A stretch of DNA of 64,000 nucleotides from Actinomadura craniellae. Its GTDB lineage: Bacteria; Actinomycetota; Actinomycetes; Streptosporangiales; Streptosporangiaceae. The position numbers and the translations under genes were made by a program. A model generated the notes under the pieces. It was not told where the DNA came from, ran no database searches, and worked only from the letters and a program-made list of their open reading frames with translations. The stretch lies in contig NZ_QLYX01000012.1 in the NCBI RefSeq assembly GCF_003289645.1, positions 1-64,000 of the forward strand, in the 5' to 3' direction. Below, in pieces: positions 6,112 to 26,556 of the stretch (positions are counted from its first letter, which is position 1; each line of letters starts with the position of its first letter).

Positions 6112-6378
6112 ATGGGTCTCCTGCTCATTGACACGAGCGCCGAGGTGCTGCCCGGCCTGCGCGACATCGACGACCTTTATCTCGTTCGCTCCAGCATCGA
6201 GCGGATGGGAGACGACCGCTACCGGATCTCCGGCTACGCACCCGAGACGGTGATCCCGGAGTTGGAGGCACGGGGGTGCACGGTCCAGGTGCTGATGACC
6301 TCACAAGACATCGACCACTTCAACGACGACGTCGCGACCGCCATCGCCCCGCCGGACGACACCCCCCCAGAGTCCTGA
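6112..6378 (+). CDS. 88-aa protein of unknown function, first gene of the DUF6603/kelch block
   Basis: A small acidic protein, preceded by AGGGGGAC. It reads as a compact alpha/beta domain: VLPGLRDIDDLYLVRSSIER, then YRISGYAPETVIPELEARG and CTVQVLMTSQDIDHF, and a short acidic-proline tail. I do not recognise a named family. The pattern of a strand, a helix that numbers the chain (ETVIPELEARGC) and another strand resembles the small propeptide-like domains seen ahead of M14 peptidases, and the next gene, one base downstream, is an M14 peptidase. A chaperone or inhibitor for that enzyme is therefore one possibility, but this is inference only. Confidence 0.75.
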   Translation: MGLLLIDTSAEVLPGLRDIDDLYLVRSSIERMGDDRYRISGYAPETVIPELEARGCTVQVLMTSQDIDHFNDDVATAIAPPDDTPPES

Positions 6379-6379
6379 G

Positions 6380-7981
6380 ATGCCGCCGCCCTATCCCGAG
6401 ATCACGGCGCCGCTGCGCCCGCAGCAGATCGAGGACGCCCTGGCGGACCTCGCCACGACCTTCCCCACGCTGTGCACGCGGACCGTCTTCACCGGCAAGA
6501 CGCACGAGGGCCGCTCGCACAGCTACCTCAAGATCGCGAACGGCACCGGCGAGCGGCCGGCCGTCCTCGTCACCGGCGGCGTGCACGCCCGGGAATGGGC
6601 TCCACCGGACGCGCTGGTGACCTTCGCCCGCAACCTGCTGGTGTCCTTCCAGAGCGGCACCGACATCACGATCCCGGCGATGGAGGTCACCCCGCTGACC
6701 GGGCCGCCGGTGCGCTACCGCCCGTGGAAGATCAAGGCGAGTGATGTCGCCGGCATCCTCAACAAGGTCGACTTATACATCTTCCCGCTGGTCAACCCGG
6801 ACGGCCGGGAGTTCGACCTCACCCCGCCGATCGACCCGATCGGCTGGCGCAAGAACCGCAGACCACCCCCACCGGCGGGCGGCGACATCGGTGTCGACCT
6901 GAACCGCAACTTCAACATCGCCTGGAAGTTCGAGGACTACTACGACCTGCCGCTGTACGTCTCGCGCTACGGCGAGGAACCGGCGAAGCGGACACCGGTC
7001 GGCGACATCAACCAGCTCTACCGCGGGCCGAACGAACACTCCGAGCAGGAGACCCGCAACGTCGAGTCGCTGCTGGACACCCTGCCCGTCCACTACTACG
7101 TCGACGTGCACATGTTCGGCCGCAAGATCCTGCACTCCTGGGGCCTGGACGGGAACGGCAACGACCCGGCGATGAGCTTCACCAACCCGGCCTTCAACAA
7201 CAAGCGGGACGGGATGATCGCCGGCGACCCCGCGCTGCCGTTGGGACGGACCGACTACAAGGAGTACCTGCCCGACGACCCACCCCACAAGATCCGCTCG
7301 CGGGCCGTGTTCATCGCGAACGCGATGCGCGACGAGATCCTGCGCGCGGCGAACGGCGGCGCGACCCCACCGGCCGCCTCCAGCCCGCAGCAGAACCACT
7401 CGGACTACGAGGTCGGCCCGAGCGCCTTCCTGTACCTGCCGGTGGGTGGCGGCCCGACCCCCGGCTGCGCCGACGACTACGCGTGCAGCCGGCAGTTCGT
7501 CAATCCCGCCCGCAAGCCGATCTTCGCCTACACGATCGAGACCGGGCACCCCGAGGAGCAGGGCTTCCACTGCAACTACGCCAACCCGCCCGGGCACTTC
7601 CGGAAGATCAACCGGGAGGTCCACGCGGCGCTGCTCGCACTGCTCAAGGTCGCGGCGGCGTCGCCGCTGGCCCCGCCCGCACCCTCGCCCCGGCCCCCGA
7701 ACAGCGGGCCGTGCCTGATCGCGACCGCCACCATGGGCGACGCCGGCCACCCGGACGTGGTGTTCCTGCGCGCCCTGCGCGACGAGCGGCTGCGCGCCAC
7801 CCCGCGCGGCGCCCGGCTCGCCGACCTGCTCGACCGCGTCTACTACAGCTTCAGCCCGGCGGTGGCCCGGTACATCGAGGGGCGCCCCCGGGCCCGGACG
7901 GCCGTCCGGCTGCTGGTGATCCGTCCCCTCGTCGCCGTGCTGCGGCGCGCCCTGGGGACCGGCAAGGGAGGTCGCCGATGA
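6380..7981 (+). CDS. M14-family zinc carboxypeptidase with CFI-box-like C-terminal tail
   Basis: A 533-residue metallopeptidase of the carboxypeptidase A family. Zinc ligands are H69 and E72 in VHAREW and H244 in VDVHMFG. The substrate-carboxylate Arg is R176 in DLNRNF and the catalytic Glu is E387 in YTIETG, so it should be active. No signal peptide is visible. After a proline linker (residues 429-443) it ends with a tail starting CLIATATMG (residue 445), then FLRALRDERL, YYSFSPAVARYI and a basic hydrophobic end. This matches the CFI-box C-terminal module found on diverse bacterial enzymes, whose role is unknown. The stop overlaps the next gene's start by ATGA; the previous gene ends one base upstream. 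Confidence 0.9.
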   Translation: MPPPYPEITAPLRPQQIEDALADLATTFPTLCTRTVFTGKTHEGRSHSYLKIANGTGERPAVLVTGGVHAREWAPPDALVTFARNLLVSFQSGTDITIPAMEVTPLTGPPVRYRPWKIKASDVAGILNKVDLYIFPLVNPDGREFDLTPPIDPIGWRKNRRPPPPAGGDIGVDLNRNFNIAWKFEDYYDLPLYVSRYGEEPAKRTPVGDINQLYRGPNEHSEQETRNVESLLDTLPVHYYVDVHMFGRKILHSWGLDGNGNDPAMSFTNPAFNNKRDGMIAGDPALPLGRTDYKEYLPDDPPHKIRSRAVFIANAMRDEILRAANGGATPPAASSPQQNHSDYEVGPSAFLYLPVGGGPTPGCADDYACSRQFVNPARKPIFAYTIETGHPEEQGFHCNYANPPGHFRKINREVHAALLALLKVAAASPLAPPAPSPRPPNSGPCLIATATMGDAGHPDVVFLRALRDERLRATPRGARLADLLDRVYYSFSPAVARYIEGRPRARTAVRLLVIRPLVAVLRRALGTGKGGRR

Positions 7982-10900
7982 CCGGCACCGTCGAGCGGCT
8001 CGCGATCGAGGTCGGCAAGCTCCTCGAACCGATCACCGAACGGCTGGCCTCCGGCCAGCTCGTCGACCTGTTCGCCGACCTGGGGCTGCCGCTGCCACCG
8101 GCGGTGGCGAACTCACCCGCCGTCCAGGACGCGGCGAGCTCCGCGAACAACGTCCTCGTCGCGCTTCCCGCGAAGATCGGCGCGCTGGTGGACGCCGTGG
8201 CCGACGGCGACGACGGCGCCGTCGCCGCCGCGCTGACCGGGCTGCTGCAGGTGCTGCCCGGCGCGTTCAGCGCGAGCCGCGCGCTGGCGACCGCGGTCCG
8301 GACCGCGGTCACCGGAGCCGGCCCGGTCAGCCCGCCGGTGCAGCAGATCCTCACCGACCTGCCCCAGCGGCTGATCGACTTCACCGCCGCCACCTACCTG
8401 CTGGAGCAGCGCCCCGCGCTCGGCAACGCGCTGGCCCTGTTCGGCCTCGTCGACAACGTGCAGGTGGCCCCGGACGGAGACCGGCCCGGCTACCTGCGCC
8501 GCGGGTTCCGGACAGACCGGCTGGGCACGTTCCTGCGCGACCCGCTCCAGGCGCTCGCCGAGGTCTACGGCTGGGGGAACCCGGCGACCCCGCTGGACGT
8601 GCAGGCACTGTTCACCAGGCTCCGCGACCTGGCGCACGCGGCCGGCATCCCGGTCACCGTGCTCACCGGCCCGGACGGCCGGCTCCAACTGGCGGCGTTC
8701 CTCTTCCGGATCGACCAGGTCACCGGTCTCCCGCCGGGCACGCCGACCCCGCTGGACCTGGTGCTGGACGAGTTCGACCTCACCGGAGTCGATGTCGACC
8801 TGCCGTTCGGCACCACCTGGAAGGCGCACCTGCGCGCGGCGGGCACGCTCAACCTCGGCGCCGTGCTGCGCATCGAACCGCCCGCCACGCTGCGCCCCCA
8901 GGCGCCCGCGCCCGGCGTCCGGGGCGAGGTGACGGTGTCGTTCGAGCGCGTCCCCCCGCCCGGGTCCGGGCCGATCGTGCTGCTCGGCAGCGCCACCGGC
9001 ACCCGGCTGGCCGCCGACGCCATCCGCGCCGGGCTCGGCCTGTCCTTCGCCGCGGACGGCGGCGGGATCCAGGCGCGGCCGGTCCTCGACGCCGCGGTGG
9101 ACGGCGGCAAGCTGGTGATCGACCTGTCCTCCGGCGACGGCTTCCTCGCCACCCTGCTCGGCGGCGCCAAGATCGAGGCCGACCTCGACGCCGGCATCAC
9201 CATCGACCCCGAGCACGGCCTGCGGTTCCGCGGCGGCGGCGGGCTGGAGGTCCAGCTGCCGGTGCACGTGGAGCTGGGGCCGGTGGAGGTGCAGGCGGTC
9301 CACCTGGCGGCGCGCGTCGACGGGCCGGGGGTCGTGCTGGAGCTGTCGGCCGGGTTCCGGGCCCAGCTCGGTCCCGTCCAGGCCACCGTCGAGCGGGTGG
9401 GCGGCCTGGTCCACCTCAGCCTCCCGCCGGGCGGCGGCGACCTCGGCCCGGTCAAGACGAAGTTCGGGTTCAAGCCGCCCGACGGGGTCGGCCTCGCGGT
9501 CGACGCGGGCGTCGTGTCCGGCGGCGGGTACCTGTTCGCCGACGCGGACCGCGGGGAGTACGCCGGGGCGCTGGAACTGGAGTTCGCGAACTTCGTCGAG
9601 CTGAAGGCGATCGGGCTGATCAGCACCCGGATGCCGGACGGCTCCGCGGGGTTCTCGCTGCTCATCGTGATCACCACCGAGTTCGGCGGGGGTGGCCTCC
9701 AACTCGGCTACGGGTTCACCCTGCTCGCCGTCGGCGGCCTGATCGGGCTGAACCGGGGCATGAACCTGCAGGCGCTGGTGGAGGGCGTGCGCACCGGCTC
9801 GATCGAGTCGGTGATGTTCCCGCGGGACGTGGTGGCGAACGCGCCGCGCATCCTCAGCGACCTGCGCGCCTTCTTCCCGCCCGAGGACGGCACCTTCCTG
9901 GTCGGCCCGATGGCGAAGATCGGCTGGGGCACGCCGACGCTGGTCAGCGTGTCACTCGGGGTGATCGTCGAGATTCCGGGGAACCTCGCGATCCTCGGCG
10001 TCCTCAAGTGCGTGCTGCCCACCGAGCACCTGCCGCTGCTCGTCCTGCAGGTGAGCTTCATCGGCGCGGTCGAGTTCGACAGGTCGCGGCTGTGGTTTTT
10101 CGCCCAGCTCTTCGACTCGCGCGTCCTGATGATGACCCTCGACGGCGGGATGGGCCTGCTCGTCGCCTGGGGCGACGACCCCGACCTGGTGCTGACGGTC
10201 GGCGGGTTCCACCCCTCCTTCACCCCGCCGCCGTTGCCGTTCCCGGTGCCGAACCGGCTGTCGGTGGACATCCTCAACCAGCCGGGCCGGCTGATCCGGG
10301 TGTCCGGCTACTTCGCGATCACCAGCAACACGGTGCAGTTCGGCGCCCGGGCGGAACTGCGGCTGGGCTTCGGCGGCTTCGGCGTCGAGGGGCACCTCGC
10401 GTTCGACGCGCTGTTCCGGTTCTCGCCGTTCATGTTCATCATCGAGATCTCCGCGGGTGTCTCGCTCAAGGCGTTCGGGGTCGGCCTGTTCGGCATCGAC
10501 CTGCGGTTCCGGCTGGAGGGCCCGGCGCCGTGGCGGGCCCGCGGCCGCGGCTCGATCTCCCTGCTGTTCTTCGAGATCTCCGCGGACTTCGACATCACCT
10601 GGGGCGAGGAGCGCGACACCACGCTGCCGCCGGTCGACGTCCTGCCCCTGCTGGCGAGCGAGATCGCCAAACTCGAGGGCTGGCAGACCTTGCCGCCCGC
10701 CGGCGGCGCGAAGGCCCTGGTCAGCCTGCGCCCCCTGGCCGAGACCGACCAACTGGTGCTGCACCCGCTCGGCACGCTGTTCGTCCGGCAGCGGTCGATC
10801 CCGCTCGGCGTCCGCCTGGACCGGGTCGGCGCCCAGCGGCCGGCCGACGGCCGGCGCTTCGGCGTCGCGCCGGCCCCGGGCAGCGGCCTGGTGCAGCGGT

Positions 10901-12588
10901 CGGTCACCGACGACAAGTTCGCCATGGCCCAGTTCCAGGACATGGACGACGCGGCGAAGCTGTCCCGGCCCGCCTACGAGGACCAGGACGCCGGGCTGGA
11001 ACTGGCCGCCGCGCAGGGCGCGCTGGCGTCCGCCCGGGTGGTCCGGCGCAGCGCCCGCTACGAGCAGATCGTCATCGACAGCAGGGCACGCCAGGCCGGC
11101 GGCACGACGCTGCGGGCCACCGCCGCCGCCCCGGCCGGCGGAGGCAAGCGGCTCACCACCGTCAGCCCCGCGGTGTTCAACCGGTTGCTCGACGGCAGCA
11201 GCACCAGCCGCTCGCCGCTGTCCCGGCAGGACGCCGAGCGCAGGCAGCCGTTCACCGCCGCCGAGACCGTCCAGATCACCGGGCGCCGGTACGTGGTCGC
11301 CCATGCCAGCAACAACCTCCAGGCGTTCCCGCCGGGCACCGGCCCCGGCGGCCCGGCGAGCTTCCGCAGCCAGACGGCCGCGGAGGACGCCCTCGCGGAC
11401 TGGGTGGCCGACGCCCCCGCCCTGGCCGGCACGCTGCACGTCATCCCCGAGTCCGAGGCGGCCGCCCCGCCCGCGGTGCCGGGCACCTGGACCGCGGCGG
11501 CGAACCCGTTCCCGGCGGCGGTGTCCTGGGCGGCGGCGACGGACCCGGCGGCACGGCTGCCCGGCGGCAGGGTCCTGGCGGCCGGCGGCGCGGACGCCAC
11601 CGGGCAGTCCGTCGCGGGCACGGCGCTGTTCGACCCCGTCGCGCTCGCCTGGGCGGCGGGCCCGGCGCTGGCGACCGCCCGCCGGCTGCACTCGACCACC
11701 GGGCTCGCCGACGGCCGGGTCCTGGTCGCCGGGGGGCTGGGCGGCACGGCGCCGGTCGCCGCCGCCGAGATCTACGACCCGGTCGCCGGCACCTGGTCCG
11801 TGACCTCCGGTGGCATGGACACGGCGCGCTTCGCGCACTCGGCGACGCCGCTGCCGGACGGCACGGTCCTGGTCGCCGGCGGTACCGGAGCCCGCGGCGC
11901 GGCGCTGCCGTCGGCGGAACTGTTCGACCCGGTCGCCGGCACCTGGGACGCCGCCGCGCCGATGACCGACGCCCGCTCCGGCCACCGCGCCGTGGCGCTG
12001 CCCGGCGGCCGCGTGCTGGTCGTCGGCGGCGCGCTGCCGACCGGGGGAGCCGACGCCGCGCTCGCGCACTGCGAGATCTACGACCCGGAGACCGGCGAGT
12101 GGACCCCGACCGGAAGCCTGGTCACACCGCGCCGGGGACACCAGGCGACCTTGCTGGCCGACGGCTCGGTCCTGGTGACGGGCGGCGCCGCCCCCGGAAC
12201 ACCCGCCACCGGCGGGTACCACCCCGGCGCGCTGGCCGCCGCGGAACGGTACGACCCCGGCACGGGCGTGTGGACACCGGTCGCCGCCATGCCCGGCGGG
12301 CGCCGGGGGCACCGCGCCGTCCTGCTGCGGTCCGGCGGGGTGCTCGTCGTCGGCGGCACCGGCGGCCCCACCACCGCGGGGGGCTACCGGAGCGCGGTGC
12401 GCTACGACCCGGCGGCCGACACCTGGACGGCCACCGGCCCCCTCGGCACCGGCCGGTACGACTTCGCGGCCGTCGAACTGGCCGACGGCCGGGTCGTCGC
12501 CACGGGCGGGCGGGTGCTCTCCGGCGCCGCGGCACCCGACCCCGACGCGGACGTGCTAACCGCCACCACAGAGATCTTCACCCCGTGA
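7978..12588 (+). CDS. Giant DUF6603-like protein with C-terminal seven-blade kelch propeller
   Basis: A 1536-residue protein. The ATG at 7978 overlaps the upstream stop and gives the expected start; the frame stays open further upstream without meaning. The N-terminal 150 residues are helical. Residues of about 480-900 match the DUF6603 pattern: FGFKPPDGVGLAVDAGVVSG, AIGLISTRMPDGS, GYGFTLLAVGGLIGLNRGMN, SVMFPRDVVANAPRILSDLR and VGGFHPSFTPPPLPFP. This region is long, Gly-rich and beta-rich, without a signal peptide. After a linker, about residues 1165-1536 form seven kelch/galactose-oxidase-type blades, each with a [LG]-DGRVLVAGG strand and a YDP-x-x-x-W-x end. The biological role is unknown. 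Position inside a coupled operon suggests a multi-protein assembly. Confidence 0.88.
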   Translation: MTGTVERLAIEVGKLLEPITERLASGQLVDLFADLGLPLPPAVANSPAVQDAASSANNVLVALPAKIGALVDAVADGDDGAVAAALTGLLQVLPGAFSASRALATAVRTAVTGAGPVSPPVQQILTDLPQRLIDFTAATYLLEQRPALGNALALFGLVDNVQVAPDGDRPGYLRRGFRTDRLGTFLRDPLQALAEVYGWGNPATPLDVQALFTRLRDLAHAAGIPVTVLTGPDGRLQLAAFLFRIDQVTGLPPGTPTPLDLVLDEFDLTGVDVDLPFGTTWKAHLRAAGTLNLGAVLRIEPPATLRPQAPAPGVRGEVTVSFERVPPPGSGPIVLLGSATGTRLAADAIRAGLGLSFAADGGGIQARPVLDAAVDGGKLVIDLSSGDGFLATLLGGAKIEADLDAGITIDPEHGLRFRGGGGLEVQLPVHVELGPVEVQAVHLAARVDGPGVVLELSAGFRAQLGPVQATVERVGGLVHLSLPPGGGDLGPVKTKFGFKPPDGVGLAVDAGVVSGGGYLFADADRGEYAGALELEFANFVELKAIGLISTRMPDGSAGFSLLIVITTEFGGGGLQLGYGFTLLAVGGLIGLNRGMNLQALVEGVRTGSIESVMFPRDVVANAPRILSDLRAFFPPEDGTFLVGPMAKIGWGTPTLVSVSLGVIVEIPGNLAILGVLKCVLPTEHLPLLVLQVSFIGAVEFDRSRLWFFAQLFDSRVLMMTLDGGMGLLVAWGDDPDLVLTVGGFHPSFTPPPLPFPVPNRLSVDILNQPGRLIRVSGYFAITSNTVQFGARAELRLGFGGFGVEGHLAFDALFRFSPFMFIIEISAGVSLKAFGVGLFGIDLRFRLEGPAPWRARGRGSISLLFFEISADFDITWGEERDTTLPPVDVLPLLASEIAKLEGWQTLPPAGGAKALVSLRPLAETDQLVLHPLGTLFVRQRSIPLGVRLDRVGAQRPADGRRFGVAPAPGSGLVQRSVTDDKFAMAQFQDMDDAAKLSRPAYEDQDAGLELAAAQGALASARVVRRSARYEQIVIDSRARQAGGTTLRATAAAPAGGGKRLTTVSPAVFNRLLDGSSTSRSPLSRQDAERRQPFTAAETVQITGRRYVVAHASNNLQAFPPGTGPGGPASFRSQTAAEDALADWVADAPALAGTLHVIPESEAAAPPAVPGTWTAAANPFPAAVSWAAATDPAARLPGGRVLAAGGADATGQSVAGTALFDPVALAWAAGPALATARRLHSTTGLADGRVLVAGGLGGTAPVAAAEIYDPVAGTWSVTSGGMDTARFAHSATPLPDGTVLVAGGTGARGAALPSAELFDPVAGTWDAAAPMTDARSGHRAVALPGGRVLVVGGALPTGGADAALAHCEIYDPETGEWTPTGSLVTPRRGHQATLLADGSVLVTGGAAPGTPATGGYHPGALAAAERYDPGTGVWTPVAAMPGGRRGHRAVLLRSGGVLVVGGTGGPTTAGGYRSAVRYDPAADTWTATGPLGTGRYDFAAVELADGRVVATGGRVLSGAAAPDPDADVLTATTEIFTP

Positions 12589-12616
12589 ACCGGGCGACCA
12601 CGAAGGGTTCGACGCC

Positions 12617-13792
12617 ATGACCAGTCCGACACTGGCGGCCACCGGGCAGTGGACGGCCACCGACGACCTGCCCGCGCCCGGAAGCTGGGACGGGCAGTAC
12701 GACGGCGCGGTCCTGCTGGAGAACGGCAAGGTCCTCGTCGTGGGCGGCGCCGACGCGGCGTCGGCGGCACTGGCCCGCGCCGCGCTCTACGACCCGGCCG
12801 CGCAGACCTGGCAGGCCACCGGTTCGCTGCAGACCGCCCGCCGGCGGCACTCCGCGACCCTGCTGGACGACGGGAAGGTCCTCGTCGCCGGCGGGATCAG
12901 CGGGTCCGCGCAGTTCCCGGCGCCGGGCCTCGCGGCGGCCGAGGTCTACACCCCGGCCACCGGAACGTGGGCGGCGACGGGCGCCATGCCGGGGCCCCGC
13001 TGGGGGCACAGCGCCGTGCTGCTGGAGGACGGGAAGGTCCTGGTGGCGGGCGGCACGACGGTCCGGTCCGGCCAGTCGGTGCGGGCCCTGCGCTCGGCGG
13101 CCCGCTACGACCCGGCCGCCGGCACCTGGAGCGCGGCCGCGGACATGACCGACGCCCGCAGCGGCCACACCGCCGTCGTGCTGGACGACGGGAAGGTCCT
13201 CGTCGCCGGCGGCACCGCGCCGGTCAGTCGGGACGGCGAGGCCGCGCTCGCCTTCTGCGAGCTGTACGACCCGGTCGCCGACACCTGGACGCCGACCGGG
13301 AACCTGCGCGTCCCGCGCGCCCGGCACCAGGCCGTCCGGGTGTCCGGGACCCGGGTGCTCGTCACCGGGGGCAGCGCTCCCGGGGCCGCCGCCGACGGCA
13401 CGTTCGACCCGCTGAGCCGGCGCACGGCCGAGGTGTACGACCAGGCCACCGGCGCGTGGACCTTCACCCCGGAGATGCCCGGCGGGCGCGGCCTGCACCG
13501 TGCCGTCCCGCTCGGCGCGGGCAAGGTCCTGGTGGTGGGCGGCACCGACGACGTCCGTGACGGCGTCGGCTACCGCAGCGCGCTCATCTTCGACGCCGCC
13601 GCGAACACCTGGACCCCGGCCGGCGGACCGGCCGACGGCCGGTGGGCCTTCGCCGCCACCGCGCTGGCGGACGGCAAGGTCCTCGTCACCGGCGGGATCA
13701 CCCGGTCCGGCCTGGCGGCCTCGACTCCGGACGCCGTCGAGCTGACCGCCGGCACGGAGGTCTTCAGCATCACCGGAGGGGGCATCCCGTGA
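12617..13792 (+). CDS. Kelch-repeat beta-propeller protein, seven blades
   Basis: A 391-residue protein made almost entirely of kelch-type repeats. Seven blades can be counted from the strand DGKVLVAGG or a close variant (first in LLENGKVLVVGG, last in ALADGKVLVTGG), most followed by a YDPAAGTW-like end. It is essentially a free-standing copy of the propeller that closes the preceding giant protein, so the two probably arose by duplication. There is no signal peptide or enzyme motif, and a galactose-oxidase copper site is not apparent. The gene starts 28 bases after the previous stop and shares a GTGA overlap with the next start. A protein-protein interaction scaffold is the likely role. Confidence 0.88.
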   Translation: MTSPTLAATGQWTATDDLPAPGSWDGQYDGAVLLENGKVLVVGGADAASAALARAALYDPAAQTWQATGSLQTARRRHSATLLDDGKVLVAGGISGSAQFPAPGLAAAEVYTPATGTWAATGAMPGPRWGHSAVLLEDGKVLVAGGTTVRSGQSVRALRSAARYDPAAGTWSAAADMTDARSGHTAVVLDDGKVLVAGGTAPVSRDGEAALAFCELYDPVADTWTPTGNLRVPRARHQAVRVSGTRVLVTGGSAPGAAADGTFDPLSRRTAEVYDQATGAWTFTPEMPGGRGLHRAVPLGAGKVLVVGGTDDVRDGVGYRSALIFDAAANTWTPAGGPADGRWAFAATALADGKVLVTGGITRSGLAASTPDAVELTAGTEVFSITGGGIP

Positions 13793-16700: not shown

Positions 16701-16992
16701 CGTGGGGCCGAGTACCCGGGTGGAGGTCTGGAACGACCTGTCCTGGCCGGACGTGGACCCCGCCGGCCACGGCTTCATCCGGCTCGACGCGAACACCGCG
16801 CCGGTCCCGCTCCAGGAGTTCGACGACCCGATCGACGACCAGGAGAAACGCGAGCAGCACCTGGAGGACCTGTCCCTGCCGGTCTGGTTCGCGGGGCTGA
16901 GCGCCGCCGACATCGCCTACATGCTCTTCCAGGCACCGGTCCTGATGGCCGTACACGCACAGGAGATGCTGCCGCAATGGCCGACCAGCTGA
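13789..16992 (+). CDS. Large protein of unknown function (1067 aa)
   Basis: The GTG start overlaps the upstream stop (GTGA), so the protein begins NAYSFLPWLRTGIATKI after two residues. An N-terminal domain has well-spaced motifs QIYGPGDVIGVDP, NVEPNYLAHLEFYDEDFPW and APWLALVVLAAGE, which look like a conserved beta-rich domain. A middle region with DTWDTPYPHPFQQAL follows. The C-terminal half contains AYPVIDLPMYRALLEDS, NLTLIPPNTITLLETNQEF and the aromatic/acidic EYPTDQRGTPFRQFWD. It has no signal peptide or membrane segment. I cannot connect it with a characterised family; the regular domain order argues for a real, selected protein. It overlaps the next gene by 16 bases. Confidence 0.85.
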   Translation: MSANAYSFLPWLRTGIATKITADPGTADRASITVTLRLTGEAIAGGQLPPRDVEQQVQIYGPGDVIGVDPRAISRTEPAPWVTNVEPNYLAHLEFYDEDFPWRYSPAVPDGTTRRLAPWLALVVLAAGEGPDGAGAEFTEGVLPDRPLPFIAVTDPAATLPPADQLGAWAHVHVNGGLDAAVATDDLSAALPNLDGVLRHNADNACSRLMCPRRLDPDTGYHAFLVPAFETGRLAGLGLDPAGSPGALFPAWGATYQGQQAAGTLPYYHRWFFGTGGAGDFEYLVRLLEPRIPDPRVGRRDVDVHRSPGLGLPGINTPDAIGGVLRLGGALQVPKRPADAFDTWDTPYPHPFQQALSGLINLADDYTGQQPAAAHAALAATDPAARAAVPQAAEGDQVDPVITPPLYGRWHALTSRLLSERDGTPIPAPLDRNWVHRLNLDPRFRVAAGFGVRVVQRRQEEFMAAAWAQIGDVLALNGRIRAAQLAREVGHALQARHLEPPATTARLAAFPSGKSLTLTAPAHSRVTVSASSGPGQGLLAGLAGTVAVGHRVATSQVAAAPLSPAMRRIVRPGARLMRSLEFPAGSPPEALVSRMDAESGPVTAAPPKTVPDAVVTPEQLDEVLHPPGPGLAAAGDPVGELPTSSDFVLTLPGDPFVPTPGGPDSPEAQQFKAALRDLYQGRDAAAVGGRADARDRLLVDEAATAVLQGLRADRTVPQAMLDAVNLPQRVRSFAERFIEAMAYPVIDLPMYRALLEDSVDVFVPNLTLIPPNTITLLETNQEFIESYLVGLNHELARELLWREYPTDQRGTPFRQFWDSRTALSPPGETAEQRRERLYDIRPIHRWPPESGLGENDNREEGGAQEDDLVLVIRGDLLKKYPNAAIYAHRARWQPDNAHPDPDQERVPVDLVDPEHPTLAEIRLPLYEAKVDPDIHLLGFDLTAAEAEGENGDAGWFFVIKERPGDPRFGLDVGPSTRVEVWNDLSWPDVDPAGHGFIRLDANTAPVPLQEFDDPIDDQEKREQHLEDLSLPVWFAGLSAADIAYMLFQAPVLMAVHAQEMLPQWPTS

Positions 16993-19900
16993 GTGACGAC
17001 TACCCGGTGCTGCTCGGCCCGGTACGCATCGAGACCCGGTTCACCCCGACCGAGTTGCTGGTCCGGGTGTTCCCGGACGAGTGGGCGATCGACGCGTTCG
17101 AGCCCCGGCCCACCCGGGCCGAGATCAGCGCCCTGGACGCCTACTGGACCGCGTTCTGGCGGGCGGCCGGCGACCTGGCCGGCGAGCAGGCCGCCTGGCA
17201 GGAGCTGACCGGGCGGATCGCGCCGGGCCGCGCGAGCTGGTTGCTGCAGAGCCGGCGGCCCGCCAACCCGGGGGAGCGGCCGACCGCGGTGCCGGCCGGC
17301 ACGGCCGTGCTGGTGGTCGTCACCGGCCAGGCCGTGCCGGCGAACGACCGGCAGCCCACGATCAACTACTGGACCTCGATCTGGCGGGCGCACGGCGACC
17401 GCGCCGAGATCCGCGCCGCCGACATCGCGCTGCTCGCCGCCGTCGGCGCGACCCGCGCGGGCACCATCCGCGCCCGCCGCCCCGCCGGGGTGGACGCCGC
17501 CCCGGTCACCCCCGGCGACGCCGTGGCGGTGGCGTTCCTGGTGCTGCCGCCGCCGGCCGCCGCCGACCTGGCCCCGCAGTCGTGGACCCGGGCGGCCACC
17601 GCCCGGCTGCTGCCGGACCGGTTCACCGTCCTGGGCTACGTGGCCGGCGAGCAGGTGCTGTCGGCGACCGGGGCAGCGATCCCCGCCACGCTGGCGGTGA
17701 GCCCCGACCCGAGCGCCACCGACCAGCTGGAGGTGGACGAGGAGACCGGCGCCCTGCACGTCCCGGACGCGCTGCGCTGGCTGACCGACTTCGACCGCGC
17801 CGTCCAGGTGGGGATGGGCCTGCGGATCCCGCTGGACGACGGCACCCGCGACGGGCTGGACCGGCTGGTGGTGCTCGGGTTACGGCAGGGGGCCGCCCCG
17901 GCGCAGGCCGCCACCGACCTGGCGGACCTGCTCACCCGCCAGCACCGCAGCCCGGCCGGGTTCGGCCTGCTGCCCCAGGGCACGCCGACCAACAACACCG
18001 AACGGGCCCCGGCGGGCCAGGACGCCGCCGCGGAGACCGCGGCCGGGCTGCGGACGGCGTTCGGTTTCGCCGCCGCGGCGACCCCGGGCGACTGGACGGC
18101 CAAGACCGACGGGCAGTGGTTCGCCGAACTCCTCGGCCTCGACCCCGCCACGCTGACCGGGGTGCCGAACGCCGACCTGACCGACCAGCGGGACGCCCGC
18201 GCCCTCAACACGGCGCTGTGGCCCGCCACCTGGGGCTACCACCTGCAGACCGCGCTGCACCCGATCCTCGCCCCCGACGCGGTGGCGCGCACCCGCGAGT
18301 TCTTCCTGCGGCACGTGTCCGGGCGCGGCCCGATCCCGGCCGTCAAGATCGGCAGGCAGCCGTACGGCATCCTCCCCACCACCGCCTTCTCCCGGCTGGC
18401 CTGGCCCGACCCGGCCGCGCACCGGCGCGCCCTGAAGGGGGTGCTCGACGCCGCCGCGCAGGACTGGGCCGCGGCCGTCGCGAAGGTCGCCCGGCTCGGC
18501 GCCGCCACCGACGACCCGCACCAGACGCTGCTGGACATCCTCGCGCTGCACCCCACCTCGGCCGAGTACCACCAGCGGTACGCCCAGAGCGTCGAGGACG
18601 TCTACAACCGGGAGCACCTGGGCGGCCTCGGCGGCACCGTGCTGCCCGCGCTGGCCCAGCTGAACATGCCGCAGCCGATCCGCGCGCTGCTCGCCCGGCT
18701 GGGCCACACCGGCGCCGACCCGGACCTGATCCGCCGGCTGTTCGTCGGCGACCAGCACCCCCTGCTGGGCCCGCTGGTCGACGACCGCCCGCCCTCGGAG
18801 ACCGACCCCCTCCGGGAGTACACCGCCGACCAGCGCAACTACCTGCGCTGGCTGGCCGACCACGGGCGCACCGACCTGGAGACGGTCCGGCTGGAGCAGG
18901 GTTTCGCGGCGGGCGGCCCGCCCGCCGCGCTGCTCTACCTCCTGCTGCGGCACGCGGTCCTGCTCGGCTGGGAGGAGGCCGCCCGCGGCCTCGCGGTCGC
19001 CGCCGGACTGCCGGCCCTGCCAGCCGCGGACCCGCCGTTCATCCACATCAAGCTCGGCGACCCGCCGCCGCCCAGCGAGAGCCGGTTCCGGCGGCTGTAC
19101 TCCCCGGAACCGGCCATCACGGGGGACCCCGCCACGCTGGTGGTCGACCACATCCCGACCGTCATCGACACGCATCCGGCCACCGCCCCGCTCGCCGAGC
19201 AGGTCGGCGCGCTCGCCCTGCTGGCCGACCTGCCCACCGCCCGGCTGGAGCGGGTGCTGGCCGAGCACCTCGACTGCGCGACCTACCGGCTGGACGCCTG
19301 GCGGCTGGGGCTGGCCAACGAGCGGCTGGCCGAACTGCGCTACGGCCCCGCCGGCGACGCCCCGGCCCGGCGCGGGGTGCACCTGGGCGCCTACGGGTGG
19401 CTGGAGGACGTCCGCCCGCGGCCCGCGGCCGGACAGCCCACCCCGGTGCAGCCGCCCGCCGGGCTCGACGAGGTCTTCGACGGCCCGCTGCTGCACGACC
19501 CGAAGAACGGCGGCTACGTGCACGCCCCGTCGCCCGGCCACGCCACCACCGCCGCGGTGCTGCGGGCCGGCTACATCGCCAACGGCTCGCCGGAGAACCC
19601 CGGCGCGTTCGCGGTGAACCTGAGCTCCGAGCGCGTCCGGGTGGCGCTCACCATGCTGGACGGGCTGCGGCAGGGGCAGTCGCTGGGCGCGCTGCTGGGC
19701 TACCGGCTGGAACGCGGGTTGCACGACCGGCACCCGGACGCCGAGGTGGACTCCTTCATCCTCGCGCTGCGCGGCGAGTTCCCGTTGCGGGCCGGCAAGC
19801 TCCCGGAGACCCGGCCCGTGGAGCCCGTCGCGATCGAGCAGGTCGAGGCCCGCAACGTCATCGACGGGCTGGCCCTGGTCCGGCACCTCACCCGCAACGA

Positions 19901-22184
19901 CGTCCCGCAGAGCTACCCGTTCGGCCTGGACGACCGGCTGCCGGACGCCGACCCCGACCAGGCCGCGGTCATCACCGGGGAGGTCGTCCGGCTGCTGGAC
20001 GTCCACGACGCCCTGGCCGACCTCGCCGTCGCCGAGGGCGCCCACCAGGCGCTGCTCGGCAACGCCGAACGGGCCTCCGCCACCCTCGACGCGTACGCCA
20101 AGGAGGGTTTCCCGCCCGAGCCCGCGGTGGTCGAGACCCCGCGCGGCGGGACCACCCTCACCCACCGGCTGGGCCTGCTGCTGAACCCCGGGCGGAGCCC
20201 CGCCCTCGCGCAGGGCCCCCGGGCCAAGGCCGAGCCCGCGGTCGACGACTGGCTGCCCAAGCTGCTGCCGTCCCGGCAGGACGTGGCGGCCGTGGTCACC
20301 TGGACCGACCCCGTCAGCGGGCAGGGGCGCAGCCGCGTGGTGACCCAGGTCGACGTCGGGTTGCAGCCGATCGACCTGCTGTGGGCGGTCAGACCCGCCG
20401 GCGAGGCGGCGATGACCGACCTGGACGACCGGATCATCGGCGCGGTCCTCGACCGCGACCATCCCCGCCCGGATGCGGTGCTGACCATCCGGCACACCCA
20501 GCGGGTGCCCGGAAAGGTCACCTTCTTCGAGCTCTCCCCGCTGGTCGCCGCGCTGCGGTCGCTGCTGACGGCGTCCCGGCCGCTGCGCCCGACCGACCTG
20601 GTGCCCGCCGCCGGCACCGCGCCGGTGGATCGGGGCGCCGACGACGCCATCGCCCTGTCCAAGGCGCGGCCGGCCGCGGTCCGCGACCTGCTGGACGACC
20701 TGCGCGAGGACGTCGACGACTACGTCGCCGACCTGGCGGCGCTGCTGCCCGACCCGCCCGGGCAGCCCGACCGGGCCGACCTGGTCGAGGGGATCGACGT
20801 TTTCCTCGGCCGGTACGCCGGGCTGGTCACCGCCGCGGGCGGCTTCGGCATGGTCCGCAGCGGCTGGGGCGAGGCGACCGGCTGGCGCCGCGGCGTGTAC
20901 GCGGACGTGCTGGCCGCGGTGGCCGTGACCGCCGACCGGATGGCCAAGACGCTGGCCTCGGCCGACGCGCTCATCGCCCAGTACGACGCGCTGCCCTCGG
21001 GCACCCCCGCCCAGCAGCGGTTCCGGCTGCTCCAGCAGGCCGAGCGGCTGCTCACCACGCAGCCGACCACCCCCCGCCCGGCGCAGCCGGCGCAGCTGCG
21101 CGCGATCGTCGCCGTCCGCCGCCAGCAGTTCCACGGCAGGCTGCAGGCGCTGCGGCAGGTGGACGACACCACCAGGACGACGCTGAGCGGGCTGCTGGAC
21201 CAGGTCGCGGACCTGCTGCCGCTGACCACCTTCGACCCGACCGGGCTGGACCTGACACCGTTCGAGGACCGGGTCGTCGCCCATGCCGGGGACCTGCTGG
21301 CGCGGGCGCGGGCGCTGCGGACCGACATCGCCGCCCGGCTCGCCGCCGCCACCGCGGCGCTCGCCGAATACGACCAGGCGGTGACCGGCCCGGACCGGGT
21401 CCAGGCCGCGACCGACGCGCTCCGGGCGCTGCTCGGCGAGGACGTGCTCGCGGTGCCGGAGTTCACCCCGCCCGCCCCGGTCACCGCGGACTGGAAGAAG
21501 TCCCTGAACGACAGCGGCGAGCTCGTCGAGCACCTCGCCGAGGACTTCGACCGGGACTTCCCCGTGGACGACTGGCTGCACGGCATCGCGCGGGTGCGGG
21601 ACAAGCCCCGGCTGTGGGAGAAGGCCGTCGTGCTGAGCGACGCGCTGCGCGGGCCCGGCGGCCTGCTGGGCAACCTGCTCGGCTGGCAGGAGCCCGAACT
21701 GCAGCCGGTCCAGCTGCCCTACCGGAACAACGACCACTGGCTGGGCATGGAGTTCGCCGACGGGACCACGATCACCGAGGACCGGCTGCTGTTCACCGCG
21801 CACTACGCCGCCGGCGCGATGCCGCTGATCGGCGACGCGCGGTGCGGCCTGCTGCTCGACGAGTGGACCGAGGTCATCCCGGCCGAGCGGGAGACCACCG
21901 GGATCGCCGTCCACTACGACGGCCCGGACTCCGAGCCGCCGCAGGCGATGCTGCTGGTCGTCCCGCCGGTGAAGACCGGCACCTGGAGCACCGGTGACCT
22001 GGTCGCCGCGATCAACGAGACCTACGACCTGGCACAGTCCCGCGCCGTCGAACCCGGGCACCTGGACGACACGGCGTACGCACAACTGCTACCGGCGACG
22101 GTCATGTCGGCGACCCGGCGGCCGATCACCATCAGCACCGATCTCGCGATCGCCAACCTCCGCTGGAAGGCCGCCCATGAGTGA
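16977..22184 (+). CDS. Very large protein of unknown function (1735 aa)
   Basis: The start at 16977 lies inside the end of the previous gene and gives MADQLSDDYPVLLGPVRIET, followed by a short beta-strand domain with LLVRVFPDEWAIDAFEPRPT. The central part carries GRGPIPAVKIGRQPYGILPT and a series of helical segments. The C-terminal part has long helical stretches, such as the region near residues 1280-1480, and ends in a domain with WLGMEFADGTTITEDRLLFT. No signal peptide, membrane helix or known catalytic motif is evident. The length, lack of repeats and strict coupling to its neighbours suggest a structural component of a large complex. Function unknown. Confidence 0.85.
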   Translation: MADQLSDDYPVLLGPVRIETRFTPTELLVRVFPDEWAIDAFEPRPTRAEISALDAYWTAFWRAAGDLAGEQAAWQELTGRIAPGRASWLLQSRRPANPGERPTAVPAGTAVLVVVTGQAVPANDRQPTINYWTSIWRAHGDRAEIRAADIALLAAVGATRAGTIRARRPAGVDAAPVTPGDAVAVAFLVLPPPAAADLAPQSWTRAATARLLPDRFTVLGYVAGEQVLSATGAAIPATLAVSPDPSATDQLEVDEETGALHVPDALRWLTDFDRAVQVGMGLRIPLDDGTRDGLDRLVVLGLRQGAAPAQAATDLADLLTRQHRSPAGFGLLPQGTPTNNTERAPAGQDAAAETAAGLRTAFGFAAAATPGDWTAKTDGQWFAELLGLDPATLTGVPNADLTDQRDARALNTALWPATWGYHLQTALHPILAPDAVARTREFFLRHVSGRGPIPAVKIGRQPYGILPTTAFSRLAWPDPAAHRRALKGVLDAAAQDWAAAVAKVARLGAATDDPHQTLLDILALHPTSAEYHQRYAQSVEDVYNREHLGGLGGTVLPALAQLNMPQPIRALLARLGHTGADPDLIRRLFVGDQHPLLGPLVDDRPPSETDPLREYTADQRNYLRWLADHGRTDLETVRLEQGFAAGGPPAALLYLLLRHAVLLGWEEAARGLAVAAGLPALPAADPPFIHIKLGDPPPPSESRFRRLYSPEPAITGDPATLVVDHIPTVIDTHPATAPLAEQVGALALLADLPTARLERVLAEHLDCATYRLDAWRLGLANERLAELRYGPAGDAPARRGVHLGAYGWLEDVRPRPAAGQPTPVQPPAGLDEVFDGPLLHDPKNGGYVHAPSPGHATTAAVLRAGYIANGSPENPGAFAVNLSSERVRVALTMLDGLRQGQSLGALLGYRLERGLHDRHPDAEVDSFILALRGEFPLRAGKLPETRPVEPVAIEQVEARNVIDGLALVRHLTRNDVPQSYPFGLDDRLPDADPDQAAVITGEVVRLLDVHDALADLAVAEGAHQALLGNAERASATLDAYAKEGFPPEPAVVETPRGGTTLTHRLGLLLNPGRSPALAQGPRAKAEPAVDDWLPKLLPSRQDVAAVVTWTDPVSGQGRSRVVTQVDVGLQPIDLLWAVRPAGEAAMTDLDDRIIGAVLDRDHPRPDAVLTIRHTQRVPGKVTFFELSPLVAALRSLLTASRPLRPTDLVPAAGTAPVDRGADDAIALSKARPAAVRDLLDDLREDVDDYVADLAALLPDPPGQPDRADLVEGIDVFLGRYAGLVTAAGGFGMVRSGWGEATGWRRGVYADVLAAVAVTADRMAKTLASADALIAQYDALPSGTPAQQRFRLLQQAERLLTTQPTTPRPAQPAQLRAIVAVRRQQFHGRLQALRQVDDTTRTTLSGLLDQVADLLPLTTFDPTGLDLTPFEDRVVAHAGDLLARARALRTDIAARLAAATAALAEYDQAVTGPDRVQAATDALRALLGEDVLAVPEFTPPAPVTADWKKSLNDSGELVEHLAEDFDRDFPVDDWLHGIARVRDKPRLWEKAVVLSDALRGPGGLLGNLLGWQEPELQPVQLPYRNNDHWLGMEFADGTTITEDRLLFTAHYAAGAMPLIGDARCGLLLDEWTEVIPAERETTGIAVHYDGPDSEPPQAMLLVVPPVKTGTWSTGDLVAAINETYDLAQSRAVEPGHLDDTAYAQLLPATVMSATRRPITISTDLAIANLRWKAAHE

Positions 22185-23985
22185 GCCGCCCCGTATCGAC
22201 GACCTCCCCGCGGCCCTCGCCGGCCGCGCGTTCCCGACGGTCGGCCAGTGGAACCGGCTGGAGGGCCGGCCCCGCACCACCGACTTCGCCCGCGCGCTGC
22301 GGGTGGAGGTGCGCGACCCGCTGTGGATGCTCACCCGGCAGTGGCAGCTCGGCGAGTTCCGCGGCACGGACGGGGGCTCGCCGGTCACCGCCACCTACTC
22401 CGTCGCCACCGTCCCGCCCACCCGGTTCCGGCCGGGCGGCGGCGCGGCCGGGGACCTGCCCGCCGACCGGCCGCTGGAGGCGGTCGCCGAGCGGCGGCCG
22501 GTGCCGTTCGCGTTCGGCGCCGACCGGATCTCCTTCGACCTCCGGCTGGCCATCGGCCGCCGCTGGCTGAAGCTGGTCGGCCGGTCGCCGCTGCTCCGCC
22601 TGCTCAACATCCGCCAGCAGTACGTCACGCGCTACCCCATCGCGCTGCCCAACCCGGCCAGCGACGCCGACACCCCGCGGGTGGCGCACCCGGAGGTCTG
22701 GGCGTCGATGCAGGCGGTCGCCGGCCGGCGGATGGACGGCTACCTGCTCTACCAGCACCTCAAGGGCGGCGGGCACGCCGCCGACGGCATCACCGGCCTG
22801 CTGAACCTGCACCGTCCCGCGCTCGCCGAACTCGGCGCCCGGCTGGTCGCCTGGTTCGAGGCGCTGATCGACCAGCCCGCCGGCGACGACGCCTGGGACC
22901 CGCGCCGGCTCGAACACCGGTTCTCGGTGGCGGCCACCGGGCCGGCCGGCGGCGAGAAGGTCCTCACCGCGCAGGAGTACCCCGGTGGGCGGCTCGACTG
23001 GCACGCCTTCTCGATCGACCCCGGCGGCCCGCTCGGCGGTACCGACCCGGCGCCGCCGCCCATCAACCGGACCGTGTTCCCCGCGCCGGTACGGTTCTCC
23101 GGCATGCCGCTGCCCCGCTGGTGGGCGGTCGAGGACGGGCGCACCAACTTCGCCGCGGTCCGCCCCGACAGCACCGACCTGGCCCGGCTGATCTTCCTGG
23201 AGTTCGCGCTCGTCTACAGCAACGACTGGTTCCACCTGCCCTGCGACCTGCCGGCGGGGACGCTGGCGGAGATCCGGGGCCTGGCCGTGACCGACGTCTT
23301 CGGGCAGCAACTGTGGATCACCCCGGCCGGTGCCGGGGACGACCAGGACTGGCAGCGCTGGTCGATGTTCACCCTCGACACGATCGGCGACGAGTCGGTG
23401 CCCGCGGACACCGGCCTGTTCCTGCCGCCGGTCGTGCCGAAGGTCGCCGACGGGCCCGTACTGGAGGACGTGGCGCTGATCCGCGACGAGAACGCCAACC
23501 TGGTCTGGGGGATCGAGCGCACCGTCCGGCAGGCCACCGGCGAGGGCCGCCGGGGCAGCGAGGTCGCCGCCGAGGTCCTGGCCCACCGCAGGCGGCTGTT
23601 CCCGCCGGAGCCGCCGGGCGACCCGCGCGCGGCCGTCGCCTACGAGGCGATGAACTCGATCCCGGAGAACTGGATCCCGTTCATCCCGGTGCACGTCCCC
23701 GGCGACAACCGGAGCATCCAGCTGCAACGCGCCGCGCTGCCCGGCGCGATCGACGGCGTCCCGGTCCGGCCCCGGACCGCGCTGCTGCGTGAGGGGTTCG
23801 ACGCCGGGCAGCCGTACTTCGTCAACGAGGAGGAGGTGCCGCAGTCCGGCACCGTGGTCACCGTCGCCTACAACCGCACCCGGTGGACCGACGGCCGGGT
23901 CGTGCTCTGGCTCAGCGCCCGGCGCGGCACCGGCCGCGGCGAGGGCTCCAGCGGCCTGGCCTTCGACTCCCTGATCGACACCTGA
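22177..23985 (+). CDS. Protein of unknown function (602 aa), last gene of the block
   Basis: The ATG at 22177 overlaps the end of the 1735-aa gene by eight bases. The protein opens with a striking motif, EVRDPLWMLTRQWQLGEFRG followed by TDGGSP, near residues 46-70, and later has PLPRWWAVEDGRTNFAAV, LIFLEFALVYSNDWFHLPCD and NWIPFIPVHVPGDNRSIQLQ. These aromatic-rich, ungapped motifs look like a conserved core of an uncharacterised family. There is no signal peptide or membrane segment. A strong hairpin follows directly, so this gene ends the transcription unit. The role is presumably tied to the other large proteins of the block. Confidence 0.86.
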   Translation: MSEPPRIDDLPAALAGRAFPTVGQWNRLEGRPRTTDFARALRVEVRDPLWMLTRQWQLGEFRGTDGGSPVTATYSVATVPPTRFRPGGGAAGDLPADRPLEAVAERRPVPFAFGADRISFDLRLAIGRRWLKLVGRSPLLRLLNIRQQYVTRYPIALPNPASDADTPRVAHPEVWASMQAVAGRRMDGYLLYQHLKGGGHAADGITGLLNLHRPALAELGARLVAWFEALIDQPAGDDAWDPRRLEHRFSVAATGPAGGEKVLTAQEYPGGRLDWHAFSIDPGGPLGGTDPAPPPINRTVFPAPVRFSGMPLPRWWAVEDGRTNFAAVRPDSTDLARLIFLEFALVYSNDWFHLPCDLPAGTLAEIRGLAVTDVFGQQLWITPAGAGDDQDWQRWSMFTLDTIGDESVPADTGLFLPPVVPKVADGPVLEDVALIRDENANLVWGIERTVRQATGEGRRGSEVAAEVLAHRRRLFPPEPPGDPRAAVAYEAMNSIPENWIPFIPVHVPGDNRSIQLQRAALPGAIDGVPVRPRTALLREGFDAGQPYFVNEEEVPQSGTVVTVAYNRTRWTDGRVVLWLSARRGTGRGEGSSGLAFDSLIDT

Positions 23986-23988
23986 GGG

Positions 23989-24022
23989 CCCCGCCCGCCG
24001 GGTCCGGGTCCGGCGGGCGGGG
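23989..24022. terminator. Hairpin ending the uncharacterised block
   Basis: A perfect 12-bp stem (23989-24000 with 24011-24022, CCCCGCCCGCCG) with a 10-base loop. It lies four bases after the stop of the 602-aa gene and ten bases before the end of the convergent hydrolase gene, so it can serve both strands. No T-run follows, as is usual in high-GC actinomycetes. Confidence 0.75.
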
Positions 24023-24031
24023 CGGTCGGGA

Positions 24032-26413: not shown

Positions 26414-26446
26414 GTTCGATCCCTTCGAGTGCCACGCACCCAGAGG

Positions 26447-26478
26447 CCCACCCGCGGGTAGCACCCGTTGCGGGTGGG
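26447..26478. terminator. Hairpin between the aldo/keto reductase and hydrolase genes
   Basis: CCCACCCGC (26447-26455) pairs with GCGGGTGGG (26470-26478), and an inner GGGT/ACCC helix extends the stem with a small bulge. On the minus strand it lies after the aldo/keto reductase stop and in the leader of the hydrolase gene. It could be a terminator or an mRNA leader structure; I recognise no riboswitch class. Confidence 0.5.
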
Positions 26479-26556
26479 TTTGGTGCAATTTGCACTCGAA
26501 TAAGACCGGTTGTCGTGCTGTGGACCGTTACACCGCTGTTGCGGCCCGGTTAATGA

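Follow-up and report, generated by a model that had tools for sequence, protein, structure and literature searches.

In polymorphic toxins, Rhs proteins and Tc toxins, a constant body is combined with a swapped enzymatic part, and this variable part is usually C-terminal and included in the same polypeptide. A comparable division is found in a seven-gene locus (g1 to g7) of Actinomadura craniellae, located in a stretch of 64,000 nucleotides (contig NZ_QLYX01000012.1, positions 1 to 64,000; hereafter the window), in which g3 encodes a giant protein with a DUF6603 domain. In contrast to the toxins, the variable part here consists of a separate upstream gene together with the first half of the protein encoded next. 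The Pfam scan of the window proteins gave no hit to an Rhs-type family.

The described system closest in its way of working is that of the VgrG loci of type VI secretion systems (T6SS) where a conserved carrier is likewise combined with exchangeable effectors and matched helper domains (PMC10673891). In the present case the adaptor would instead be the first half of a giant beta protein, the hosts include actinomycetes, Chloroflexota and haloarchaea, and scans of the seven window proteins against Pfam, NCBIfam and PHROGs gave no T6SS family. The conflict systems in which peptidases are coupled to effector-associated domains (EADs; PMC7159879) resemble the locus in that each operon may encode several peptidases, of trypsin-like and S8 type, which a small shared domain ties to the core. 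Those systems have NucA or STAND nucleoside triphosphatase (NTPase) components, and the terms kelch, PhoD, phospholipase D (PLD) and carboxypeptidase are absent from that text. Neither NTPase nor EAD families were found in Pfam scans of the seven window proteins and of 20 representatives of the enzymes encoded upstream of DUF6603. On the evidence here, the system would work most like T6SS effector-adaptor-VgrG sets or peptidase-coupled conflict systems and appears to be a member of neither. Pfam DUF6603 (PF20248) itself is a domain family without an assigned function, which covers approximately residues 428–991 of g3 and not its adaptor half, g5 to g7 or the enzyme slot. It also includes a second type with other neighbors. 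Our literature search found no paper on the CFI-box and, apart from general papers, none on such a system; none of the 5.39 million papers searched mentions DUF6603, although a description outside the searched sources is possible.

We present here an analysis of this locus and its relatives. The genes DUF6603-g5-g6-g7 form a set of fixed order, the enzyme encoded upstream is exchanged, the DUF6603 protein is chimeric, a tail is shared between unrelated enzymes and about half of the aligned g5 proteins carry a hydrophobic hairpin. We consider the locus to be, fairly probably, a modular enzyme carrier: a chassis composed of the C-terminal half of DUF6603, g5, g6 and g7 would hold a hydrolase or oxidase whose gene lies immediately upstream, the first ~460 residues of DUF6603 would act as an adaptor specific to the class of the enzyme, and the two would be swapped jointly through recombination within the DUF6603 gene. 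In the window, the carried enzyme would be the M14 carboxypeptidase g2 with its partner g1.

Four-gene core and exchangeable enzyme slot

A scan of the genome collection with g5 gave 131 relatives, 80 of which were kept and represent 79 distinct loci. These are distributed over Actinomycetota, Cyanobacteriota, Bacteroidota, Pseudomonadota, Chloroflexota, Planctomycetota, Myxococcota, Acidobacteriota, Nitrospirota and other phyla. Gene order and strand (DUF6603-g5-g6-g7) are consistent in all 79. DUF6603 was matched in 76 loci, g6 in 75 and g7 in 68; all four genes were matched in 66, and 10 of the 13 loci without at least one of them lie at a contig end. The alignments (A1, 63 rows; A2, 69; A4, 55; A5, 61) exclude near copies and truncated genes of these loci. 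The arrangement is not due to chance, since the core recurs in 79 loci: the four-gene set is real, its order is fixed and its spread is patchy. Because the set recurs in fixed order across phyla and g5 to g7 belong to no recognized family, co-assembly of the four proteins is a reasonable expectation. An earlier note on this DNA had proposed co-assembly or fixed stoichiometry for all seven products. Homologues of these four genes are not scattered, which leaves the proposal reasonable for them; those of M14, g1 and kelch are found apart from the set, and a unit of all seven is not supported. No g1 homologue was found in the 79 loci. M14 enzymes were seen at first pass in two (L071, through the CFI-box tail only, and L018, on the opposite strand and outside the slot). 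Kelch proteins occur in 25, including 24 actinomycete loci and L071, where the kelch protein is the oxidase itself. Kelch genes are an actinomycete addition.

Within 150 genomes of the window's family, g5 was found in 21, g7 in 25 and DUF6603 in 38. All 21 g5 genomes have g7; of the other four g7 cases, one is a fragment and three are weak matches. In 20 of the 21, both DUF6603 and g7 are located on the contig of g5, at most 10 kb from it; the remaining genome (G020, in ~840 contigs) has DUF6603, g5 and g7 on three separate contigs. In a sample of the phylum, g5 is present in 6 of 296 genomes, that of the window counted (7.5 Mb, 41 contigs). There are also 13 plasmid records with g5, including five of Streptomyces and four which we take to be haloarchaeal, the taxonomy line having been read for one. 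The four plasmid loci examined (one haloarchaeal) and the single, unverified contig found among phage records all have the four genes in order (5/5), with DUF6603 cut by the contig end in the latter. The 160 pattern stretches from viral contigs included no relatives. On the Rhizobium lusitanum plasmid (L086, 11902–19790), both g5 and g6 are encoded by two adjacent genes instead of one, and the split points indicate natural domain borders near g5 profile positions 300/370 and g6 position 955. Tyrosine recombinase genes lie near the cores of L086 and of another plasmid, L084, pointing to island-like mobility. Some chassis proteins are annotated with additional domains of surface type: a BGTF surface domain in g6 and a lamin tail domain in g7 of an archaeal plasmid (Salinigranum, L083), and VCBS repeats in g5 of a Streptomyces plasmid (L085).

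The protein whose gene overlaps or abuts the start of DUF6603 was taken as the slot protein. The 72 such proteins of at least 200 amino acids (aa), that of the window counted, form 13 clusters: S8 and trypsin-like together 33, M64-like 16, PhoD-like 7, PLD-like 2, seven singletons, and a group of five and a pair that are unassigned. The two unassigned groups (grp4 and grp6) gave no Pfam hit. Among 20 slot representatives, Pfam domains of the S8, M64, PhoD, PLDc and galactose-oxidase-like types were over the cut-off, and a trypsin domain exceeded it only in L051 and stayed below it in two others; for nine there was no Pfam hit at E<=0.01. HExxH is present in all 16 M64-like proteins. A copper-oxidase-like enzyme occupies the slot at L071, and that of L064 is presumably an alpha/beta hydrolase, by our own reading of a motif. 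Several occupants are not peptidases, among them the phosphatase-like, phospholipase-like and oxidase enzymes, and with such unrelated enzymes in this position elsewhere the idea of a particle equipped with a processing peptidase, put forward in the earlier note, is not supported. The end of the enzyme gene coincides with the start of DUF6603 in most loci.

The M14 gene and g1 fill this exchangeable slot in the window. M14 enzymes scored above the generic level in 3 of the 150 family genomes (the window's, G064 and G136; the next was at 38 bits), and all three lie directly upstream of a core. The only other close M14 homologue found is that of G064, which is preceded at the same place by a g1 homologue (54–55% identity). 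A phmmer comparison of g1 with the slot enzymes gave nothing. On a g5 tree of 58 labeled rows and 13 classes (11 of the 69 rows were left unlabeled), the enzyme class changes 27 times, against a minimum of 12 and a mean of 37.5 for shuffled labels. The rows nearest to the window carry PLD, trypsin-like and M64 enzymes.

Trypsin-like and S8 slot enzymes, whose catalytic folds are unrelated, have in common a C-terminal domain of ~110 residues (for example 41% identity, E 6e-18). This tail is present in 30 of the 72 slot enzymes, and tailed enzymes form tandem pairs or triplets at several loci. In the searches for it, scoring was confined to the top candidates per genome (27 in the family search and 14 in the phylum search). 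In the 150 family genomes it occurs at eight places in five genomes, all eight within 3 kb of a core-type DUF6603 domain; none was found in the 296 phylum genomes, a weak result as this sample includes no genome known to have the tail. The CFI-box profile, which matches the C-terminal part of g2, is over the cut-off in only the window's genome and G064 among the 150. In general, however, the CFI-box is not confined to the system, since weak matches below the cut-off also occur in 2 of 14 control genomes.

The DUF6603 protein is a chimera

The N-terminal 460 residues of DUF6603 (DUF-N) and its conserved chassis half (DUF-C) have different histories. Windowed identity was regressed on that of g5+g6+g7 for the 46 loci having all four alignments and one of seven enzyme classes. 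Loci of the same class are more similar than expected throughout DUF6603 residues 1–460 (z 5.8–13.0, 200 label shuffles). Past residue 460, z falls to 2.8–3.1 in the next two windows and to between -1.6 and 2.7 beyond residue 500; in g5, g6 and g7 it is approximately zero on average, with largest values of 2.1, 2.6 and 2.1. On trees of the same 46 loci, the enzyme class changes six times on DUF-N, the minimum, 16 times on DUF-C and 20 times on each of g5, g6 and g7. A larger DUF-N tree (62 rows, 61 labeled, 14 classes) also requires only the minimum of 13 changes, compared to a mean of 39.2 for shuffled labels.

The switch between the two parts is sharp and lies at approximately residues 450–530. 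In sliding trees of 150 residues (54 rows, eight classes), the minimum of seven changes is maintained up to residue 450; there are then 10, 15 and, from 526 on, 22–27 changes. The g7 tree rejects the 11 M64 loci as a single clade among 54 rows (approximately unbiased test, p-AU 9e-133), in a test based on a quick tree and no mixture model. The trees are mostly from FastTree and have long branches in places, and the contrast between regions is independent of single branches.

The same pattern is found in individual comparisons. The window and G064 share 68% identity in M14, 55% in g1 and 57% in DUF-N, but 39% in DUF-C and 30–32% in g5 to g7. Against five nearer cores with other enzymes, the window has 30–39% identity in DUF-N and 75–77% in DUF-C. 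Since class changes on DUF-N are at the minimum while g5, g6 and g7 show 20 each, the DUF6603 protein is a chimera of an enzyme-specific adaptor and a chassis half. Neither the tail nor the CFI-box is simply the ligand of the adaptor: on the DUF-N tree the adaptors group by catalytic class even among enzymes sharing the tail, and those of the two CFI-box enzymes are not sisters, which leaves the CFI-box unsupported as the partner of the adaptor.

Organization of the window and predicted structures

The features of the window locus are listed in the table. Coordinates agree with the seven plus-strand genes of the earlier note, as does the tight coupling at five of six junctions, which overlap or lie one base apart, g3/g4 being the exception.

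Table. Features of the window locus and its 3' border.
Feature	Coordinates	Strand	Description
g1	6112–6378	+	88 aa; gap of 1 base to g2; part of the M14 cassette
g2	6380–7981	+	M14 zinc carboxypeptidase, 533 aa, with C-terminal CFI-box; occupies the exchangeable enzyme slot
g3	7978–12588	+	ATG start; 1536 aa DUF6603 protein with C-terminal kelch propeller; 4-base overlap with g2
g3 residues 1–460	7978–9357	+	Enzyme-specific adaptor half; tracks the upstream enzyme class
g3 residues 461–1176	9358–11505	+	Conserved chassis half; most of Pfam DUF6603 and most of the long antiparallel beta meander
g3 kelch propeller	11545–12588	+	Kelch families at ~1190–1535 of P0003; start set by eye
g4	12617–13792	+	391 aa stand-alone kelch propeller (Pfam kelch families); 28-base gap after g3
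g5	13789–16992	+	GTG start; 1067 aa chassis protein; 4-base overlap with g4
g5 residues 601–660	15589–15768	+	Lower-confidence loop in the window copy; site of the hydrophobic helical hairpin elsewhere
g6	16977–22184	+	1735 aa chassis protein, no family; 16-base overlap with g5
g7	22177–23985	+	602 aa chassis protein, no family; 8-base overlap with g6
GC-rich hairpin	23988–24023	+	Directly 3' of the unit
Convergent gene	24035–26488	-	818 aa protein beyond the hairpin; weak PETase-like alpha/beta hydrolase match just under the cut-off

Residues 17–397 of g2 match PF00246 (E 1e-39, 137 bits against a cut-off of 21.6) and residues 445–514 match NF041770 (CFI_box). Its motifs HARE (69), DVH (241) and TIETG (385) presumably supply the M14 zinc motif HxxE...H and the catalytic Glu. 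The small g1 protein has no Pfam, NCBIfam or PHROGs family (E<=0.1) and could possibly be a propeptide acting as a stand-alone protein, an inhibitor or a chaperone. In the g3 translation used for profile positions (P0003, without the first Met), residues 428–991 match PF20248 (E 3e-127, 425.7 bits against a cut-off of 27). As the earlier note had stated of their function, g5, g6 and g7 remain unrecognized: they have no match in Pfam, NCBIfam or PHROGs at E<=0.1, and thus none to a phage-tail family of Pfam or PHROGs. A PADLOC scan of g2 to g5 and g7 gave no family. Among five slot enzymes so scanned, those of L018 and L053 matched 'subtilase' (E 4e-20) and 'Cas10h' (E 6e-4).

The hairpin that was said to end the unit is real (-39.5 kcal/mol, z -3.1, none of 200 shuffles equally stable). 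It sits, however, between convergent genes, and no T-run is seen by eye. Ten adjoining reading frames look ordinary (a beta-lactamase-class protein, EF-G, the PETase-like hydrolase and others).

The AlphaFold model of g5 is confident (predicted local distance difference test, pLDDT, 87.1; predicted template modeling score, pTM, 0.72). In whole-protein searches this model, which the earlier note had suggested comparing with known folds, has no match among PDB folds at E<=0.001 (best 0.29, and best VIA Z 4.4, among the matches listed), although its single domains may match PDB folds when searched individually. In 36 of the 69 g5 rows a strongly hydrophobic stretch occurs exactly at the loop near window residue 629. 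It can be read as a helical hairpin of ~41 residues (34/69 by another rule) whose flank charges have means of +1.71 and +1.62. As both flanks are positive and positively charged flanks tend to remain inside (the positive-inside rule), both probably face the cytoplasm, giving an in-in topology. The hairpin is absent from actinomycete rows (except L079), from some Bacteroidota, from Nannocystis and from others.

For DUF6603, residues 1–1176 were modeled with pLDDT 81 and pTM 0.54. The model is mostly helical over residues 1–221 and continues in long antiparallel strands to ~875. The 50 fold matches listed have Z 11–15 with a root-mean-square deviation (rmsd) mostly of ~10 A or more and TMq <=0.15, so that the protein resembles porins, ushers, LptD and ApoB in general arrangement only. 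BFVD matches reach E 2e-5 but with TM ~0.1 and were set aside. Searches of PDB by sequence gave nothing for g5 and only weak matches otherwise (g7 best E 0.04, next 0.8; g6 4e-4; DUF6603 0.006), many of them to coiled coils or designed helical proteins. No hhalign signal of kinship was seen for four of the six pairs of chassis proteins, in a comparison where the DUF6603 alignment (A3) had an out-of-frame window row. The earlier observation that no signal peptide is present agrees with a crude hydropathy scan, and on that basis only: signal-like N termini are absent from the g5, g6 and g7 rows and occur in 1 of 61 DUF6603 rows and 4 of 72 slot enzymes.

Several observations concern relatives outside the standard arrangement. 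One g5 homologue (G342:C1:7481626-7484136) lies within an open frame of 3212 aa, possibly as a fusion or insertion. A DUF6603 of the second type (G000:C8:155819-157249; L002, L088), from the same genome as a core, is included in a 3930-aa open frame, and the start of the adjoining frame resembles the g5 N terminus by eye. Seven loci (L101–L107) have DUF6603 and no g6 or g7 match, with weak g5-like neighbors in L102 and L107 (E 2e-5 and 1e-4). These second-type loci are possibly a parallel, simpler system.

Proposed carrier function and alternative explanations

Under the carrier-adaptor reading, the enzyme would dock physically on DUF6603 residues 1–460. The chassis could form a giant complex keeping the enzyme at the membrane or in a particle and, where the hairpin exists, would be attached to the membrane on its cytoplasmic side. 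Use of the enzyme in conflict seems slightly favored over other uses, with triggered release onto the contents of the producing cell or an invader and delivery to other cells being about equally likely. Several points weigh against this reading. L007 and L072 have no DUF6603 and L070 no g7 by tblastn, despite sufficient flanking sequence. The adaptors of tailed trypsins and tailed S8 enzymes form separate groups (one change), those of the CFI-box enzymes are not sisters, and that of the L071 copper oxidase groups with the adaptors of tailed trypsins. As weapons, an exopeptidase and a copper oxidase would also be unusual. Finally, the adaptor end of DUF6603 is the end adjoining the enzyme gene, so linkage alone could yield the match between them. 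This last point underlies the main technical alternative, that there is no docking and that enzyme and DUF-N are co-exchanged through adjacency, with crossovers in the conserved DUF6603 domain. The border indeed lies at the start of the more conserved sequence, where homologous recombination is easiest. We nevertheless find this rather doubtful: class changes on DUF-N stay at their minimum along 450 residues, with no decay with distance, the tailed enzymes carry a module seen solely beside the system, and enzyme classes retain related adaptors across phyla.

What a carrier would be used for can be envisaged in different ways. One tentative possibility is intracellular conflict of the abortive-infection type, in which the chassis senses infection at the membrane and activates a bound hydrolase, so that the cell is killed or arrested. 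The interchangeable hydrolases, the patchy spread of g5 (21/150 in the family, 6/296 in the phylum sample), the hairpin flanks (+1.7, +1.6) suggesting in-in topology and the recombinase genes near two plasmid loci are in agreement with this, as is the junction between enzyme and DUF6603 genes, the only place checked, which in most loci leaves no room for an immunity gene. The PADLOC matches in L018 and L053 are weak hints in the same direction, together with AbiJ_NTD4 in L042, below the cut-off. However, g2 to g5 and g7 have no PADLOC match, the Pfam scans gave no NTPase or nucleotide-sensor family and no nuclease, and an exopeptidase and a copper oxidase are among the slot enzymes. M14, M64-like, PhoD-like and copper-oxidase-like enzymes are usually secreted, yet only 4 of the 72 slot enzymes have a signal-like N terminus on a crude scan. 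Their presence in the slot, the surface-type annotations of some homologues (BGTF surface, lamin tail, VCBS) and a beta meander arranged like porins, ushers, LptD and ApoB would fit a particle, exported or released by lysis, that brings the enzyme to other cells or into the environment for antagonism or feeding. This possibility is of similarly modest weight: g5 to g7 match no phage-tail or other named family, the hairpin charges point to the cytoplasmic membrane of the producer and, at an rmsd of ~10 A, the fold matches reflect a common arrangement only. An ordinary enzyme scaffold for nutrition or envelope maintenance, outside any conflict, would account for the digestive-type enzymes, many of which keep their catalytic motifs; it appears unlikely given the patchy distribution, the frequent class swaps and the size of a chassis serving one or few hydrolases. 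Very improbable is the fixed seven-gene particle with a processing peptidase which the tight coupling in the window had suggested, as M14, g1 and kelch are not conserved parts and the slot elsewhere holds non-peptidases.

Returning to the carrier-adaptor reading, we regard as an evenly balanced proposition that the locus represents an undescribed type of effector machine of prokaryotes, in bacteria and haloarchaea, whose chassis of four proteins, based on a giant beta sheet and the g5 fold, loads at least seven recognized enzyme types via class-matched adaptor halves and is diversified by joint recombination of adaptor and enzyme. If so, a machine found throughout many bacterial phyla and in haloarchaea would so far have escaped naming. 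As represented in the window, three of the four core proteins fall in no Pfam, NCBIfam or PHROGs family, and g5 is confidently modeled with no PDB match. The sharp border within DUF6603 provides a testable rule for the fit between enzyme and carrier and could open a large dark-matter family to probing.

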